NCBI RefSeq assembly: GCF_029167365.1
Contig: NZ_JARFNM010000001.1
Coordinates: 736,001-800,000 of the forward strand
DNA length: 64,000 nucleotides
DNA from: Amygdalobacter nucleatus
Lineage (GTDB): Bacteria; Bacillota; Clostridia; Saccharofermentanales; Fastidiosipilaceae
Direction of reading: 5' to 3'
Part shown: positions 10,156 to 29,974 of the stretch, piece by piece
How the letters are laid out: the number at the start of each line of letters is the position of its first letter
How positions within the stretch are numbered: position 1 is the stretch's first letter
Position numbers and translations under genes: made by a program
Notes under the pieces: generated by a model
Told to the model about the DNA's origin: nothing
The model's input: only the letters and a program-made list of their open reading frames with translations
The model's database searches: none

Positions 10156-10719
10156 ATGAAATACGATTATGCTTTTAAACTTAATGCTGTAGAACTATAT
10201 CGCTCTGGTCAGTGGATTGAGACACCAGAAGGTATAAGTCAAAAGAATTTTAGAAAAAGAATTGTACAATGGTCAAGAATTGCAGATATATATGGTCTTG
10301 ATTCTCTTCGGCATCCAACTACATGTAAAGAACGTTCGGCTGAATGTAGATATCAGTTAGTAGCTCGTGTACTTGCTGGTGAATCACAAAAATCTGTTGC
10401 TATTAGTGCAGGAATTGATAGTGGATTATTGTCTAAATGGGTTCAGACATATAAAGTTAAAGGGTATGAAGGATTAAATCTCAAAAAAGGCAGAAAAAGT
10501 AAGAAGGAAGCAAACGTGAGCAAGAAATCCAAACCCACTGATTTAACCCCATCAGAACGTGAAGAATTAATTCGTCTTAGAGCAGAAACTGAATACTTAA
10601 AAACGGAGAATGAAGCAATAAAAAAATTAATCGCCTTGAGACACGAAAAATGGGCTGCGGAACTCAAGGCGAAAAAGCAGCAATCATCAAAGAACTCCGT
10701 GAAAAAGGATACCAATTAA
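10156..10719 (+). CDS. IS3-family transposase OrfA (helix-turn-helix protein)
   Basis: 187 residues. Two helix-turn-helix segments are visible: one at the N-terminus (AFKLNAVELYRSG onward) and one around residues 70-100 (QKSVAISAGIDSGLLSKWVQ), followed by a basic linker and a leucine-zipper-like coiled coil (LIRLRAETEYLKTENEAIKK, about 137-157). This long two-domain OrfA is typical of the IS150 subgroup. It binds the terminal repeats and, when fused to OrfB by a -1 shift, gives the active transposase. Its ribosome site GAAAGGGG lies within the hairpin in the left end. Confidence 0.9.
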   Translation: MKYDYAFKLNAVELYRSGQWIETPEGISQKNFRKRIVQWSRIADIYGLDSLRHPTTCKERSAECRYQLVARVLAGESQKSVAISAGIDSGLLSKWVQTYKVKGYEGLNLKKGRKSKKEANVSKKSKPTDLTPSEREELIRLRAETEYLKTENEAIKKLIALRHEKWAAELKAKKQQSSKNSVKKDTN

Positions 10720-11537
10720 AATATCTCTTAAAAGCTATTGGCATGTCTAAATCAACTTATTATTTTGAGATTAACAAATCAGATGTAGTTGCTGATCGCA
10801 ATGAAGAATTACTGATTGTTATTAGAGAAATATTTGAAAAAAACAAGCATAGATATGGTGTTCGTAGAATTTATCATGAATTACTAAATCGTGGATATCA
10901 TATAAATCATAAGCGAGTTCAACGCCTTATGCATAAAGCAGGATTAGCTGGTAAGCGTCCAAAGGAAAAATATCATTCTTATAAGGGCGAAGTAGGTAAG
11001 ATTGCTGATAATGTAATAAATAGGGATTTCAGTACAACAGCACCATTGCAGAAATGGACAACAGATGTCTCTCAGTTTAATTTTTCATGGGGGAAATGCT
11101 ATATCTCTCCAGTACTGGATATGAATACGAATGAAATCATTTCATATAATTTATCAACAAGCCCGAATCTTGAGCAGGTATCAAGAATGCTGGATAGAGC
11201 TTTTGAAAAATTCCCATCTGTTGAAGGGCTTATATTTCATTCAGACCAAGGTTGGCAGTATATGCATGCCTATTTTAGAAATACCTTACAGAAACACGGT
11301 ATTGTACAGTCTATGTCGCGAAAAGGTAATTGTTATGACAACTGTATAATGGAAACCTTCTTCGGAAGACTAAAGAATGAGATGTATTACGGCTATGAGA
11401 AAGATTATTCCTCCTTCGAAGAATTCTCAAAAGCAGTTGAAGAATATATAGATTACTATAATAATAAAAGAATTCAGGCAAAAACAAAATGGATGCCTCC
11501 TGTACAATACAGGATAGCATCCATGTGTCCAGCCTAG
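10650..11537 (+). CDS. IS3-family transposase OrfB (DDE integrase catalytic domain)
   Basis: 295 residues in the -1 frame relative to orfA with a 70-base overlap. The rve integrase core is complete: WTTDVSQF (first Asp), IFHSDQGWQY (second Asp), and NCIMETFFGRLK (catalytic Glu), with the IS3 spacing, and the YNNKRIQAKTKWMPPVQY C-terminal signature. The N-terminal HTH_21-like region KHRYGVRRIYHELLNRGY is present. Probably expressed mainly as an OrfAB fusion by frameshifting at about 10671-10677; the ATG at 10650 could also allow a separate product. Confidence 0.92.
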   Translation: MGCGTQGEKAAIIKELREKGYQLKYLLKAIGMSKSTYYFEINKSDVVADRNEELLIVIREIFEKNKHRYGVRRIYHELLNRGYHINHKRVQRLMHKAGLAGKRPKEKYHSYKGEVGKIADNVINRDFSTTAPLQKWTTDVSQFNFSWGKCYISPVLDMNTNEIISYNLSTSPNLEQVSRMLDRAFEKFPSVEGLIFHSDQGWQYMHAYFRNTLQKHGIVQSMSRKGNCYDNCIMETFFGRLKNEMYYGYEKDYSSFEEFSKAVEEYIDYYNNKRIQAKTKWMPPVQYRIASMCPA

Positions 11538-13071: not shown

Positions 13072-13126
13072 TGAGCATGTGTTAAGTAACTTTTGGCTAG
13101 TTGGCTGCATAGTCGAGGAGAGTAAA

Positions 13127-13803
13127 ATGGCTATTTTCAAAGCATTAAACGATTATGTTGTTGAGATGCGCAGATATTTTCACGCACATCCAGAACTTTC
13201 TTGGCAAGAAGTTATGACCAGCGAAAAAATTCAAGCTGAGCTAACTAAGCTGGGCATTCCTTTCGTTAAGGGCAAAGGTACAGCTGTTATCGGCACAATC
13301 AAAGGTGGTCAGCCTGGTAAGAAATTAGGCATTCGTGCAGATATTGATGCTTTGCCTGTAACGGAGAAAACTGGTTTACCATTCTCATCTGAAAATAAAG
13401 GCGTAATGCATGCCTGTGGCCACGATGCGCATATTTCCATTCTTTTGGCAGCTGCCAAGTTCTTAAACGAGCAAAAAGCACAATTAAAGGGTGAAATTAG
13501 AGTTATCTTCCAATCAGCTGAATAGTTCATTCAGGATTCTGGTGCTAAATATTTAGCCGAAGAAGCTAGTATTATAGAACTTGATAATATATCGGCCTAC
13601 ATATACAAGGCAATATTGATTGTGGCAAAGCAGCTTTACAAGTTGGCCCAATTTTAGCTTCTGCTGATACGTTCGATATTTATGTACGAGGCAAGAACGG
13701 CCATGGTGCTTCGCCTCAACTTGCCATTGATCCAATTGTAGATGGCGCAGAAGTAGTCCAGGTTTTACAAGCTTTAGTTAGCATTGGAAAATATGTTGTA
13801 TAA
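13127..13803 (+). pseudogene. Decayed M20-family amidohydrolase (peptidase), 3' end lost
   Basis: Starts normally at ATG 13127 behind GAGGAGAG and reads FHAHPELSWQE, IRADIDALPV and the metal site HACGHDAH, all typical of M20D aminoacylases. An in-frame TAG at 13523-13525 stands where the family has the FQ-AEE motif (the second Glu codon). Reading resumes as FIQDSGAKYLAEEA, then the frame changes near 13590, and another frame gives ILASADTFDIYVRGKNGHGA and AIDPIVDGAEVV up to about 13780. After that similarity stops; the last 150 or so residues are missing and the DNA turns into a histidine kinase fragment. Nonsense codon, frameshift and truncation together rule out function. Confidence 0.88.
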
Positions 13804-14349
13804 CATCGGCGATTACAAGGACCATGCGAAATATATCAAATTATCCTTAGTCAAAGTTGAGCAACTTAATGCTACGATCAAAGCTATTTTAACTATTTCA
13901 CGTTTGGAGGAGAGTTCTAACGTAGAAGGTGTAGACATTTCTAGTCTGGTTAGCCGGATTATCGCTGACAATGAAATTTGGCTCAAAGTCGCAAACTTAC
14001 AATTGTCAATGAGCTTAAAGAGACGAAAATTGCCTTGTCCAAGTTAGCTGCTGAACAAGTTTTAAGGCAGGTGATAGGCAATGCAATTCGATATTGTAGA
14101 GAAGGTGGTTTAATCAAGGTATGGGCAGATTTAGATTGCCTCTATGTGTTTGATAGCTGCAATAAGCTCAGCGAGGCTGAAATTGCTCGCTCTTTTGAGC
14201 TTTTATCGAATGAATTAGTAGCCCATAGTAGCAGTTTAGGCTTATTCATTGTCAAAAATATACTTAACAAGTATAATCTCGATTTTGCTTTTACGAATGT
14301 AGATAATGGCATGTGCTTTAAGATACAGCTTAGCCAAAAGCGTTCCTAG
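13784..14349 (+). pseudogene. Decayed sensor histidine kinase, 5' part lost and frameshifted
   Basis: Begins inside the dimerisation domain (LYNIGDYKDHAKYIKLSL, then ILTISRLEES), just after where the phosphorylated His would be. At about 13984-13987 the frame shifts: L-K in one frame continues as SRKLTIVNELKE in the next, fitting loss of one A from an A-run. The rest is the ATPase domain: EQVLRQVIGNAIRYC (N-box) and LGLFIVKNILNKYNLDF (G-box region). There is no sensor region and no response regulator gene. It is fused directly to the amidohydrolase remnant, so one deletion removed the end of one gene and the start of the other. Confidence 0.85.
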
Positions 14350-16363: not shown

Positions 16364-16411
16364 TCACAATATAATGTGCTTAGCTTCACTGAACAGTACA
16401 ATATCTTGTGT
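16364..16411 (+). promoter_or_regulatory. Two NrdR-like boxes, the first overlapping a TATAAT
   Basis: Box 1 is 16364-16379 and box 2 is 16396-16411; each matches the NrdR consensus (ACACWATATATWGTGT) at 13 of 16 positions. Their start-to-start distance is 32 bp, the three-turn spacing typical of NrdR pairs. TATAAT at 16370-16375 lies within box 1 and a weak TTTAAT 17 bases upstream could be the minus-thirty-five. NrdR with dATP/ATP would repress the reductase operon from here. Confidence 0.75.
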
Positions 16412-16446: not shown

Positions 16447-17460
16447 ATGCTAGAAGATTTGAACAAACATTCGCAAACCCCATCTGATTATGCTTTTCAC
16501 GATAATGGCTTTAATTTACGAGCTGTCAATTGGAACAAGATTGAAGATGAAAAAGATTTAGAAGTCTGGAATAGAGTTACGCAGAATTTTTGGTTGCCTG
16601 AGAACATCCCAGTTTCTAACGATTTACCTTCTTGGCATGAGTTAAATGCAGATTGGCAAACTTTGATTTTAAGAACTTTTACTGGCTTAACGCTGCTTGA
16701 TACAGTACAAGCAACCGTTGGCGATATTGCGCAAATTAAAAATGTGATGACTGATATTGAGGCGGCTAACTACGCTAATTTTGCCTTTATGGTCGCTGTC
16801 CATGCAAGATCCTATGGCACAATTTTTTCTACTTTATGTTCAAGTGAACAGATTCAAGCAGCCCATGAGTGGGTGGTGAACAACGAGTTATTACAGGCAA
16901 GGGCCAAAGCCTTAATTCCTTATTACACACAGGATGATGCGTTAAAGTCGAAAGTAGCAGCAGCCTTGATGCCTGGCTTTTTGCTCTATGGTGGTTTCTA
17001 TCTGCCATTTTATCTTTCCTCACGCGCAAAATTGCCTAACACTTCAGATATGATTCGCTTGATTTTGAGGGATAAGGTGATTCACAACTACTATAGCGGT
17101 TATAAGTACCAGCAGAAATTACAACATTTAGATGCTACAAAACAGGCTGAGATGAAAGAGTTTGTCTTTGAGCTGATGTTTAATTTGATTGCTTTAGAGA
17201 AAGCGTATTTGCGTGATTTGTATAAGGGATTTGATTTGGCTGAGGAAGCGATTCGCTTTAGCCTCTACAATGCTGGCAAATTTTTGCAAAATTTAGGCTA
17301 CGATTCACCATTTACGCCTGAAGAAACACATATTTCACCTGAAGTGTTTGCACAACTTTCAGCTAGAGCAGATGAAAATCATGACTTTTTCTCTGGTAGT
17401 GGTTCGTCATACATTATTGGTACAAGTGAAGAAACGACAGATGAGGATTGGGAATTCTAA
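16447..17460 (+). CDS. nrdF: Ribonucleotide reductase small subunit, metal-free class Ie type (VPK variant)
   Basis: 337 residues, clearly of the NrdF lineage (FTGLTLLDT, YGGFYLPFYLSSRAKL, YYSGYKYQ). In metal-dependent NrdF, four carboxylates and two histidines hold the metal pair. Here Asp85, His119 and His213 remain, as does the radical tyrosine Tyr123, but the three glutamates are replaced: Val116 (FMVAVHARSY), Pro176 (ALMPGFLLY) and Lys210 (LRDKVIHNYY). This Val-Pro-Lys set is one of the two known substitution patterns of class Ie subunits, which carry no metal and use the tyrosine after hydroxylation to DOPA as radical. The C-terminal NHDFFSG-DEDWEF tail for docking NrdE is kept. First gene of nrdF-nrdI-nrdE; AAGGAG ribosome site. 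Confidence 0.93.
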   Translation: MLEDLNKHSQTPSDYAFHDNGFNLRAVNWNKIEDEKDLEVWNRVTQNFWLPENIPVSNDLPSWHELNADWQTLILRTFTGLTLLDTVQATVGDIAQIKNVMTDIEAANYANFAFMVAVHARSYGTIFSTLCSSEQIQAAHEWVVNNELLQARAKALIPYYTQDDALKSKVAAALMPGFLLYGGFYLPFYLSSRAKLPNTSDMIRLILRDKVIHNYYSGYKYQQKLQHLDATKQAEMKEFVFELMFNLIALEKAYLRDLYKGFDLAEEAIRFSLYNAGKFLQNLGYDSPFTPEETHISPEVFAQLSARADENHDFFSGSGSSYIIGTSEETTDEDWEF

Positions 17461-17891
17461 TGGCTTTAATTGTTTATTATTCAAGTAAATCAAACAACAC
17501 CCATCGCTTTGTCGAGAAGCTAAATTTACCCAAAGTTAGGATACCTTTAGCTGAGGGGGATAATTTAAAGGTCAATGAGGACTTTGTCTTAATTACGCCA
17601 ACTTATTCAGGCGGCCAGAAAGATGCAGATGGGCATGTTTTGACGGCTGGGGCAGTGCCGAAAGATGTGATTCATTTCCTAAACCAGGTGGAAAATCGCA
17701 AACATTGTTTGGCTGTAGTTTCAAGCGGCAATACTAATTTTGGCGATAGCTATGCCATTGCTGGTCCTATCATAGCTAACAAATTACATGTGCCACTTCT
17801 GCATCAGTTTGAGCTATTAGGTACAGAGTACGATGTAGACAAAGTCAAACAAGCAGTTTTATGCATATTCAAGGAGCAAGTAAATGAATAA
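17460..17891 (+). CDS. nrdI: NrdI flavodoxin-like activator of the small subunit
   Basis: 143 residues. FMN loops are visible: YYSSKSNNTHRF (phosphate loop) at residues 5-16, ITPTYSGG near 43 and VVSSGNTNFGDSY near 84, the standard NrdI pattern. NrdI reduces oxygen to superoxide and passes it to NrdF; in class Ie it is needed to hydroxylate the tyrosine to DOPA. Start ATG 17460 overlaps the nrdF stop by one base (TAATG), and its 3' end overlaps nrdE by 8 bases, so the three are tightly coupled. The upstream in-frame GTG is not preferred. Confidence 0.93.
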   Translation: MALIVYYSSKSNNTHRFVEKLNLPKVRIPLAEGDNLKVNEDFVLITPTYSGGQKDADGHVLTAGAVPKDVIHFLNQVENRKHCLAVVSSGNTNFGDSYAIAGPIIANKLHVPLLHQFELLGTEYDVDKVKQAVLCIFKEQVNE

Positions 17892-20046
17892 TCAGCACAA
17901 AGAAGCGTATATTTCACTAAATGCCTTAACTCAGTTCAAAGATCAGCATGGCCATTATCATTTTGATGCCGATAAAGAAGCTGTCAAATTGTATATGCAA
18001 GCACAAATAATGCCGAAGCTGCTCAAATTCAAAGACATTCCAGCCAAATTGACTTATTTAGTTGAAAATAATTACTATGACGAAATTGTTTTGGCACAAT
18101 ATAAATTCGACTTTGTCGTTGAATTGTTTCAGAAAGCGGCTGATTTTAATTTCACTTTCCCAAGCTTGATGGGCGCGATGAAATTTTATCAATCATATGC
18201 CTTGATGACAGACGATAAGCAGAATTATTTAGAGACATTTGCCGATCGAGCTTGCATGAATGCCTTGTTTTTGGGCCATGGTGATGCACAATTAGCTAGC
18301 TGTCTATTAGACGATATTTTGCATAAGCGTTTGCAGCCAGCTACCCCAACTTTCCTAAATGCCGGCAAAAAGCGAAGAGGCGAGTTCGTTTCGTGCTATC
18401 TTTTGCGTTTGGAAGATAATATGGAATCAATCGCCCGTGGCATTTCAACCAGCTTGCAATTATCTAAACGAGGTGGCGGGGTGGCTCTCTGCCTAACGAA
18501 TCTGCGTGAAAGTGGCGCGCCGATCAAAGGCATTGTCAATCAGTCATCTGGCGTGGTGCCGGTCATGAAGCTTTTGGAAGACTCTTTTTCATATGCTAAC
18601 CAATTAGGCCAAAGACAGGGTGCTGGTGCTGTTTATCTCAACGTTCATCATCCCGATATTTTGCAGTTCTTGGATACGAAGCGCGAGAATGCTGATGAAA
18701 AGATCAGAATTAAATCCTTGTCCTTAGGCGTTGTCATTCCTGATATTACCTTCGAATTAGCTAAGGCAAATAAGGATATGGCTCTCTTTTCGCCATATGA
18801 TGTGGAAAGAGAGTATGGTAAGCCTATGAGTGATATTTCAATTACTGACGAATATGCCAATCTGCTGGCTAATCCTAGGATCAAAAAGACTTATACCTCA
18901 GCGCGCAAATTATTCCAAACGATTGCCGAGTTACATTTTGAATCTGGCTATCCTTATATTTTGTTCGAAGATAGTGCCAACTTAAGAAATCCGCTTAAAA
19001 AAGTAGGGCGGATCATTATGTCAAATCTCTGCTCTGAAATTGCGCAAGTCAATACAGCCAGTGCTTACAGTGAAGATTTGACTTTTACCAAGGTCGGAGA
19101 AGATGTTTGCTGCAATTTAGCTTCGCTTAATATAGCTAAGGTCATGGAAGCAGCTCCTCAGTTTGCTGAAATTGTCGAACATGCTATCTATGGACTTAAC
19201 CTAGTTTCACGTGCTTCTGACCTAGCTTGTGCGCCATCTGTCCAAAAGGGCAATTTGGGCAACCATGCTCTAGGCTTAGGCGCGATGAACTTGCATGGTT
19301 TTTTAGCAGAAAATCACATCTTTTACGATACAGAAGAAGCGGTTGATTTCACCGACATTTTCTTCTTCTGTTTAGCTTACCATGCCTTCAGTGCGTCGAA
19401 TAAGTTGGCACAAAAAGTTGGTCCATTTGCCAATTTCGCTCTATCTGAATATGCCGATGGTACTTACTTCCAAAAGTATCTAAACGAAGATAAGCAGCCT
19501 AAAACGGCTAAGGTTAAGGAGCTTATTAAGAAATATCAGCTCAAGTTGCCGACAGCTTCCGATTGGCGCAATTTGGTTGAACGAATTAAGCAATCTGGCT
19601 TAGCTAATGCCCATCTCTTGGCCGTGGCGCCAACTGGCTCAATTTCATACCTATCTTCCTGTACGCCAAGTCTGCAAGCAGTTGTTTCGCCTGTCGAGGT
19701 TAGAAAAGAGGGCAAGTTAGGCCGTGTCTATGTCCCAGCTTACAAAATTTCGGCTGATAATTATGCATATTATCAGAAAGGGGCGTATGAAGTAGGTCCG
19801 AATGCCTTGATTGATATAGCAGCTGCAGCTCAAAAGCATGTTGATCAGGCCATTTCGTTGACTCTGTTCATGACTTCGGAAGCTACAACGAGAGATTTAA
19901 ACAAAGCTTATATCTATGCTTTCAAAAAAGGTCTATCGTCTATTTATTATGTGCGCATTCGCCAAGAGGTGTTAGAGGGTAGCGAGCATTTAGCGGAAGA
20001 TGCGCTGATCAGCAATTTGAATGAATGTGAGTCGTGTATGATTTGA
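17884..20046 (+). CDS. nrdE: Ribonucleoside-diphosphate reductase large subunit, class Ib-type NrdE
   Basis: 720 residues, normal NrdE length, with no ATP-cone at the N-terminus, as in class Ib enzymes. Visible: PATPTFLNAGKKRRGEFVSC (Cys171, one of the reducing pair), LSKRGGGVALCLTNLR, NLCSEI (Cys383, radical-cysteine region), DVCCNLASLN, the APTGSISYLS loop and the redox-active C-terminal pair NECESCMI. It reduces ribonucleoside diphosphates at the catalytic cysteine after radical transfer from NrdF. No nrdH thioredoxin gene follows; a generic thioredoxin must reload the C-terminal cysteines. A clear terminator closes the operon. Confidence 0.95.
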   Translation: MNNQHKEAYISLNALTQFKDQHGHYHFDADKEAVKLYMQAQIMPKLLKFKDIPAKLTYLVENNYYDEIVLAQYKFDFVVELFQKAADFNFTFPSLMGAMKFYQSYALMTDDKQNYLETFADRACMNALFLGHGDAQLASCLLDDILHKRLQPATPTFLNAGKKRRGEFVSCYLLRLEDNMESIARGISTSLQLSKRGGGVALCLTNLRESGAPIKGIVNQSSGVVPVMKLLEDSFSYANQLGQRQGAGAVYLNVHHPDILQFLDTKRENADEKIRIKSLSLGVVIPDITFELAKANKDMALFSPYDVEREYGKPMSDISITDEYANLLANPRIKKTYTSARKLFQTIAELHFESGYPYILFEDSANLRNPLKKVGRIIMSNLCSEIAQVNTASAYSEDLTFTKVGEDVCCNLASLNIAKVMEAAPQFAEIVEHAIYGLNLVSRASDLACAPSVQKGNLGNHALGLGAMNLHGFLAENHIFYDTEEAVDFTDIFFFCLAYHAFSASNKLAQKVGPFANFALSEYADGTYFQKYLNEDKQPKTAKVKELIKKYQLKLPTASDWRNLVERIKQSGLANAHLLAVAPTGSISYLSSCTPSLQAVVSPVEVRKEGKLGRVYVPAYKISADNYAYYQKGAYEVGPNALIDIAAAAQKHVDQAISLTLFMTSEATTRDLNKAYIYAFKKGLSSIYYVRIRQEVLEGSEHLAEDALISNLNECESCMI

Positions 20047-20066: not shown

Positions 20067-20100
20067 AATAACGCCATACAGAAATGTCTGGCGTTATTTT
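20067..20100 (+). terminator. Terminator after nrdE
   Basis: 10-bp stem AATAACGCCA / TGGCGTTATT (20067-20076 with 20089-20098), extended inward by ACA/TGT after one mismatch, followed by TTATTTT. It is 20 bases downstream of the nrdE stop. Confidence 0.85.
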
Positions 20101-20218
20101 GTGAAACCATATCTGTCATTTTTTAAGCTAGCTTTGTGCAAAATGAATGAAAATATTCCAATTTTTGTTAAATATATGTTATAATCAAGCAAGTTTATTA
20201 TGTAAGAGAGGTAATGAT

Positions 20219-29473: not shown

Positions 29474-29974
29474 TTATAGCAAAAATTCCCATTGCCTAGA
29501 TGAGCGGAGAATCCTGTGAACCAAAACAATATGCTCATTTTCGTTGATGATATAGAAAATAAGATAGTTTTTGTAGCAAGTTGTGCGATAACCTTGGCTA
29601 GCTAGATAGCTGTCAGAGACTAATTGAAAGCCTTCAGGCATAAAGGCTAATTGCGCTATAGATCCTTCCATTCCGTTAATAAATTTTTTGATAGTGATAG
29701 GGGCGGTTAAGTCCCTTTGCATATAGCGAATGATGTTTAGAAGATCAACTTGCGCAGATTCAGTTACTTCAATCTCATAATCATGCTCGGGATACGCACA
29801 ATCATGCATAGGGTGCTTATAATCATGCTCGGGATACGCACAATCATGCGTAGGATCATAATCACGTGTGTGATCATAATCATGCATAGGGTGCTTATAA
29901 TCATGCTCGGAATACACACAATCATGTGTTGAGTGCTCGTAATTATGCATGGGATAGCTCTTTTCGTAAGTCAT
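29474..29974 (-). CDS. RelE/ParE-family toxin with a repeat-coded N-terminal extension
   Basis: 166 residues. Residues 66-166 are a recognisable RelE/ParE fold: YEIEVTESAQVDLLNIIRYM at the start, LAFMPEGFQLVSD, GYRTTCYKNYLIFYIINE, and VHRILRSSRQW at the end. Such toxins cleave mRNA at the ribosome or poison gyrase. Residues 14-66 are unusual: degenerate 14-residue repeats rich in His, Asp, Tyr and Pro (HDCAYPEHDYKHPM type). The ORF overlaps the antitoxin gene by 32 bases. An internal ATG close to the domain could give a normal short toxin, but no ribosome site is seen before it, so the extended form is my first choice. Confidence 0.8.
   Translation of the reverse strand: MTYEKSYPMHNYEHSTHDCVYSEHDYKHPMHDYDHTRDYDPTHDCAYPEHDYKHPMHDCAYPEHDYEIEVTESAQVDLLNIIRYMQRDLTAPITIKKFINGMEGSIAQLAFMPEGFQLVSDSYLASQGYRTTCYKNYLIFYIINENEHIVLVHRILRSSRQWEFLL
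29776..29935 (-). repeat. In-frame minisatellite within the toxin gene
   Basis: Imperfect units of 42, 36, 42 and 30 bases, coding for 14, 12, 14 and 10 residues (HDCVYSEHDYKHPM and variants). Two units are almost identical in DNA (sharing CATGCTCGGGATACGCACAA), so expansion is recent. All units keep the reading frame. Confidence 0.85.

Follow-up and report, generated by a model that had tools for sequence, protein, structure and literature searches.

Class Ie ribonucleotide reductases of the VPK type carry an R2 subunit that is reported as metal-free (PMC11846895, PMC7615503). Two sets of substitutions at the glutamate ligands are known, Val, Pro and Lys (VPK) in Aerococcus urinae and Mesoplasma florum, and Gln, Ser and Lys (QSK), typified by Gardnerella; for the QSK enzymes a DOPA-based mechanism is reported (PMC11846895). 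VPK reductases have been reported mainly from Mycoplasmatales and Lactobacillales, and in nearly all VPK genomes the published gene order is nrdF-nrdI-nrdE. The roles of individual residues of M. florum R2 are described in structure and DFT papers (PMC7615503, PMC8902622). Class Ie is already known; new here is a member in a new lineage. In this study, we describe an nrdFIE operon in a 64,000-nucleotide stretch of DNA (the window) from Amygdalobacter nucleatus. Taken as a whole, the locus is best explained, with high confidence, as a class Ie (VPK) ribonucleotide reductase operon. It extends the range of the VPK enzymes to an isolated Clostridia-like small genome, in which no second oxygen-dependent reductase was found. 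Databases label such genes simply 'class 1b', and their metal-free nature is therefore missed.

The nrdF gene (16447..17460, + strand) runs from ATG to TAA and encodes 337 amino acids; alignment, tree and residue check identify the product as a class Ie (VPK) R2 subunit. Its best matches among solved proteins are the A. urinae class Ie R2 structures 7MMR, 7MMP and 6EBO (E ~1e-179), and M. florum class Ie R2 (6GP2) matches at E 8e-172. The next matches are other NrdF proteins, 8RAG first, and are far weaker (6e-118). The organism names given for 7MMR, 7MMP, 6EBO and 6GP2 follow in part PMC11846895. Residues 8-337 of NrdF align without gaps to both the A. urinae and the M. florum structures. In this alignment Val116 (codon GTC, 16792), Pro176 (CCT, 16972) and Lys210 (AAG, 17074) occupy the glutamate-ligand positions, and Asp85, His119, His213 and Tyr123 are retained. 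The first-pass annotation had claimed these substitutions and these retained residues; the alignment to solved R2 proteins bears out both, and the codon positions are exactly as it gave them. We also checked 16 positions that either figure in the structural and DFT work on M. florum R2 or are metal ligands in class Ib. All 16 (W49, L81, D85, Q88, V116, H119, Y123, Y160, P176, L180, F184, I206, R208, D209, K210 and H213) hold the residue expected from M. florum R2, so that the radical Tyr, the Asp and the radical-path Trp are all present.

The seven active-site residues of the window NrdF read DVHYPKH, identical to those of A. urinae R2 (6EBO, 7MMP) and to those of all eight other VPK loci. These eight were found among 80 related NrdF loci from named genomes, every one of which carries V-P-K, Q-S-K or E-E-E and none a mixture; six further matches of low identity, all from the host's relatives, had been left out owing to poor alignment at position 116. 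As the triplets are never mixed, VPK appears to be an inherited set and not the outcome of random decay. A maximum-likelihood tree of 41 sequences places the window NrdF inside a single VPK clade (support 100/100), which is monophyletic, derived from class Ib and nested with QSK sequences, in agreement with the published picture. The neighbour of the window NrdF in this tree is that of Atopobium sp. Marseille-P4126 (100/94; 81% identity) and not A. urinae R2, which comes from another organism and lineage. M. florum R2 shares all checked radical-path and gating residues, and a related Mesoplasma locus has the gene order nrdFIE, but the host is a Mollicute and its R2 lies more distant within the VPK clade. 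R2 proteins of the QSK (Gardnerella vaginalis) type likewise have Lys at the third ligand position; they carry Gln and Ser where the window has Val and Pro, are ~53% identical and stand in another gene order. Class Ib R2 (NrdF, Mn2 or Fe2) shares the fold family, the NrdI dependence and the R1 type. Its metal site comprises four carboxylate and two His ligands, however, including all three Glu, whereas the window protein has none of the three.

The genes that follow nrdF complete the operon. The nrdI gene (17460..17891, +), which encodes a flavodoxin-like activase (TIGR00333, score 158.5 bits, cut-off 74.65), starts within the nrdF stop (TAATG); among solved proteins, its product is nearest to A. 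urinae NrdI (7MMR chain E). The nrdE gene (17884..20046, +) overlaps nrdI by 8 bases and encodes an R1 catalytic subunit of 720 aa (TIGR04170, score 974 bits, cut-off 750), which aligns with 1PEM across 694 residues and has its C-terminal cysteines in the terminal sequence CESCMI. Downstream of nrdE lies a terminator-like hairpin, AATAACGCCA...TGGCGTTATTTT (20068..20101, +), missed by a pattern scan and recognised by eye only. The window, two plasmid loci and each of the eight VPK loci in named genomes share the order F-I-E, which is absent from all QSK or EEE loci examined. The NrdE partners of VPK operons, the window NrdE among them, form their own clade (100/100), the tree supporting this grouping and not the placement within it, which suggests that the operon travels as a unit. 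The sequence alignment, the tree, the residues of the active site, the order of the genes and the co-inherited NrdI and NrdE accordingly all support membership of the VPK group.

Concerning the origin of the operon, searches of 188 genomes of the order, of a sample of 391 genomes of the class and of a sample of 398 genomes of the phylum turned up no close NrdF; in the phylum sample the best others were 39-41% identical. The nearest relative belongs to a different phylum, and the simplest reading is therefore that nrdFIE was acquired by horizontal transfer, which is likely. Vertical inheritance, with class Ie ancestral in the clade and lost in relatives, would fit the G+C content of the operon (39-42%), which is close to the window mean of 38%, but the same searches and the foreign nearest relative make it very unlikely. 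Base composition gives no clear signal of a recent acquisition. The operon of that relative, Atopobium sp. Marseille-P4126 (Actinomycetota; locus L008, 5854-9857), is flanked by ordinary chromosomal-looking genes with no obvious mobile element.

A search of plasmids by tblastn found an NrdF of 76% identity on 19 Lactobacillus plasmids, whose hosts are L. gasseri, L. paragasseri, L. crispatus and one unnamed Lactobacillus, many of them from human urogenital or gut samples. The two loci read in detail, on plasmids of human L. crispatus and L. gasseri (NZ_CP046312.1 and NZ_CP118066.1; L182, 6986-10560 and L183, 5986-9560), are both VPK. Together, the window operon and the plasmid copies suggest transfer of the metal-free enzyme among unrelated bacteria, with nrdFIE as the unit that moves. 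A text search of part of the literature, mostly at the level of title and abstract, yielded no obvious paper on class Ie genes on natural plasmids. Two other carriers were considered and rejected. The 80 best NrdF matches in viral contigs are all EEE and none is VPK, which speaks against a phage origin. An IS3-family element with overlapping transposase frames is present in the window (10156-11537); a plasmid of Ligilactobacillus salivarius carries an IS3 element that matches 65% of the query at 85% identity. The window element is separated from the operon by ~5 kb on the upstream side, a span that holds several genes and gene remnants, and no evidence links it to nrdFIE.

We infer the chemistry of the enzyme from its characterised homologues. 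Reduced NrdI would react with O2, and superoxide, or its protonated form, would move from NrdI through a channel to NrdF. There, Tyr123 would be hydroxylated to DOPA and then oxidised to a stable radical in a reaction needing no metal. In the proton-coupled transfer to Trp49, Lys210 would donate a proton via a water while Trp49 supplies an electron, and the radical would travel through NrdF to the active-site cysteine of NrdE, where ribonucleotides would be reduced. By analogy, activity of the nrdFIE reductase would need oxygen or superoxide. A protein that is class Ie in sequence might instead depend on metal in this host, bound through the retained D85, H119 and H213; yet the R2e proteins of A. 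urinae and M. florum, members of a class reported to be metal-free (PMC11846895), have the same three residues, and we regard such metal dependence as extremely unlikely.

In the genome (1,614,203 bases in 3 contigs, 95.5% complete), searches detected a single NrdF, a single R1-type large subunit, which is the NrdE of the operon, and a single NrdD of class III, so that nrdFIE is the one class I or II enzyme found. Compared with its closest relative, nrdF is saturated at synonymous sites: third codon positions are just 36% identical, against 81% of the amino acids, which points to purifying selection and not to decay. That NrdF is a class Ib (Mn/Fe) protein stripped of its ligands, and either in decay or kept for a structural or regulatory role alone, is scarcely credible: three metal ligands are indeed missing and a class III reductase offers an alternative, but functional enzymes have exactly this VPK set, conservation of the protein is strong, its operon is intact, and the genome has no class I or II reductase besides nrdFIE. 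The first-pass annotation had likewise held decay to be unlikely, and had pointed to intact nrdI and nrdE genes beside nrdF, both of which are there. Its reading of the locus as class Ie VPK agrees with the alignment, residues, gene order and NrdI/NrdE partners and with the tree of known NrdF proteins, and its description of A. urinae and M. florum as class Ie, with VPK as one of two sets, is compatible with the VPK/QSK literature. While the class assignment in its interpretation stands, the need for oxygen or superoxide had been left out.

The nrdFIE reductase of class Ie (VPK) type thus appears to be the sole oxygen-dependent reductase of the cell, NrdD being the anaerobic one. As the only aerobic reductase beside class III, its most likely task is dNTP synthesis while the cell is exposed to oxygen; gene content points to a likely division in which nrdFIE supplies dNTPs under oxygen exposure and class III serves in its absence. 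A. nucleatus KA00274, from the genital tract, is described as obligately anaerobic, with a draft genome of 1.61 Mb and 39.3% G+C (PMC11318147). In such a host, the class Ie enzyme may rarely act. The benefit under metal starvation predicted in the first-pass annotation is plausible and would fit the lack of an Nramp transporter, the one type of metal importer for which the genome was searched.

Upstream of nrdF lie two palindromic NrdR-like boxes, 32 bp apart and both imperfect. The upstream box TCACAATATAATGTGC (16364..16379) agrees in 13 of 16 positions, and the downstream box GTACAATATCTTGTGT (16396..16411) in 14 of 16, with the NrdR consensus as used here. A comparable pair occurred in none of 100 simulated windows. 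The class Ie nrdF genes of Streptococcus ictaluri and Actinotignum sanguinis likewise have pairs of boxes at 31-32 bp in front of them, but the majority of the other class Ie loci inspected lack such a pair. As an NrdR gene is encoded in the genome, the candidate boxes suggest that nrdFIE is likely controlled by NrdR. A near-perfect single NrdR-like box, ACACAATATGTAGTGT, stands before the class III nrdD gene (contig C1, 900852-900867; L101, 453-468). A wider picture is tentative and, in all its parts together, rather doubtful: a strictly anaerobic Clostridia-like host would hold an NrdR-controlled, metal-free, superoxide-activated enzyme as its sole aerobic source of dNTPs, drawn from a VPK pool that circulates partly on plasmids among human-mucosal bacteria.

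Some further features of the window were observed. A search for RNA families found one tRNA only and no riboswitch or other family. The sugar-use genes in the window fit poorly with the description of Amygdalobacter nucleatus as asaccharolytic. At 13079-14349, remains of M20 peptidase and histidine-kinase genes are fused in shifted frames, forming a composite pseudogene stretch. At 29474-29974 (- strand), a ParE-type toxin domain follows, in the same frame, ~65 residues of imperfect His/Asp/Tyr-rich repeats (HDY.HPMHDC). These repeats, which may be merely an upstream reading frame, are encoded by a 42-bp tandem repeat.
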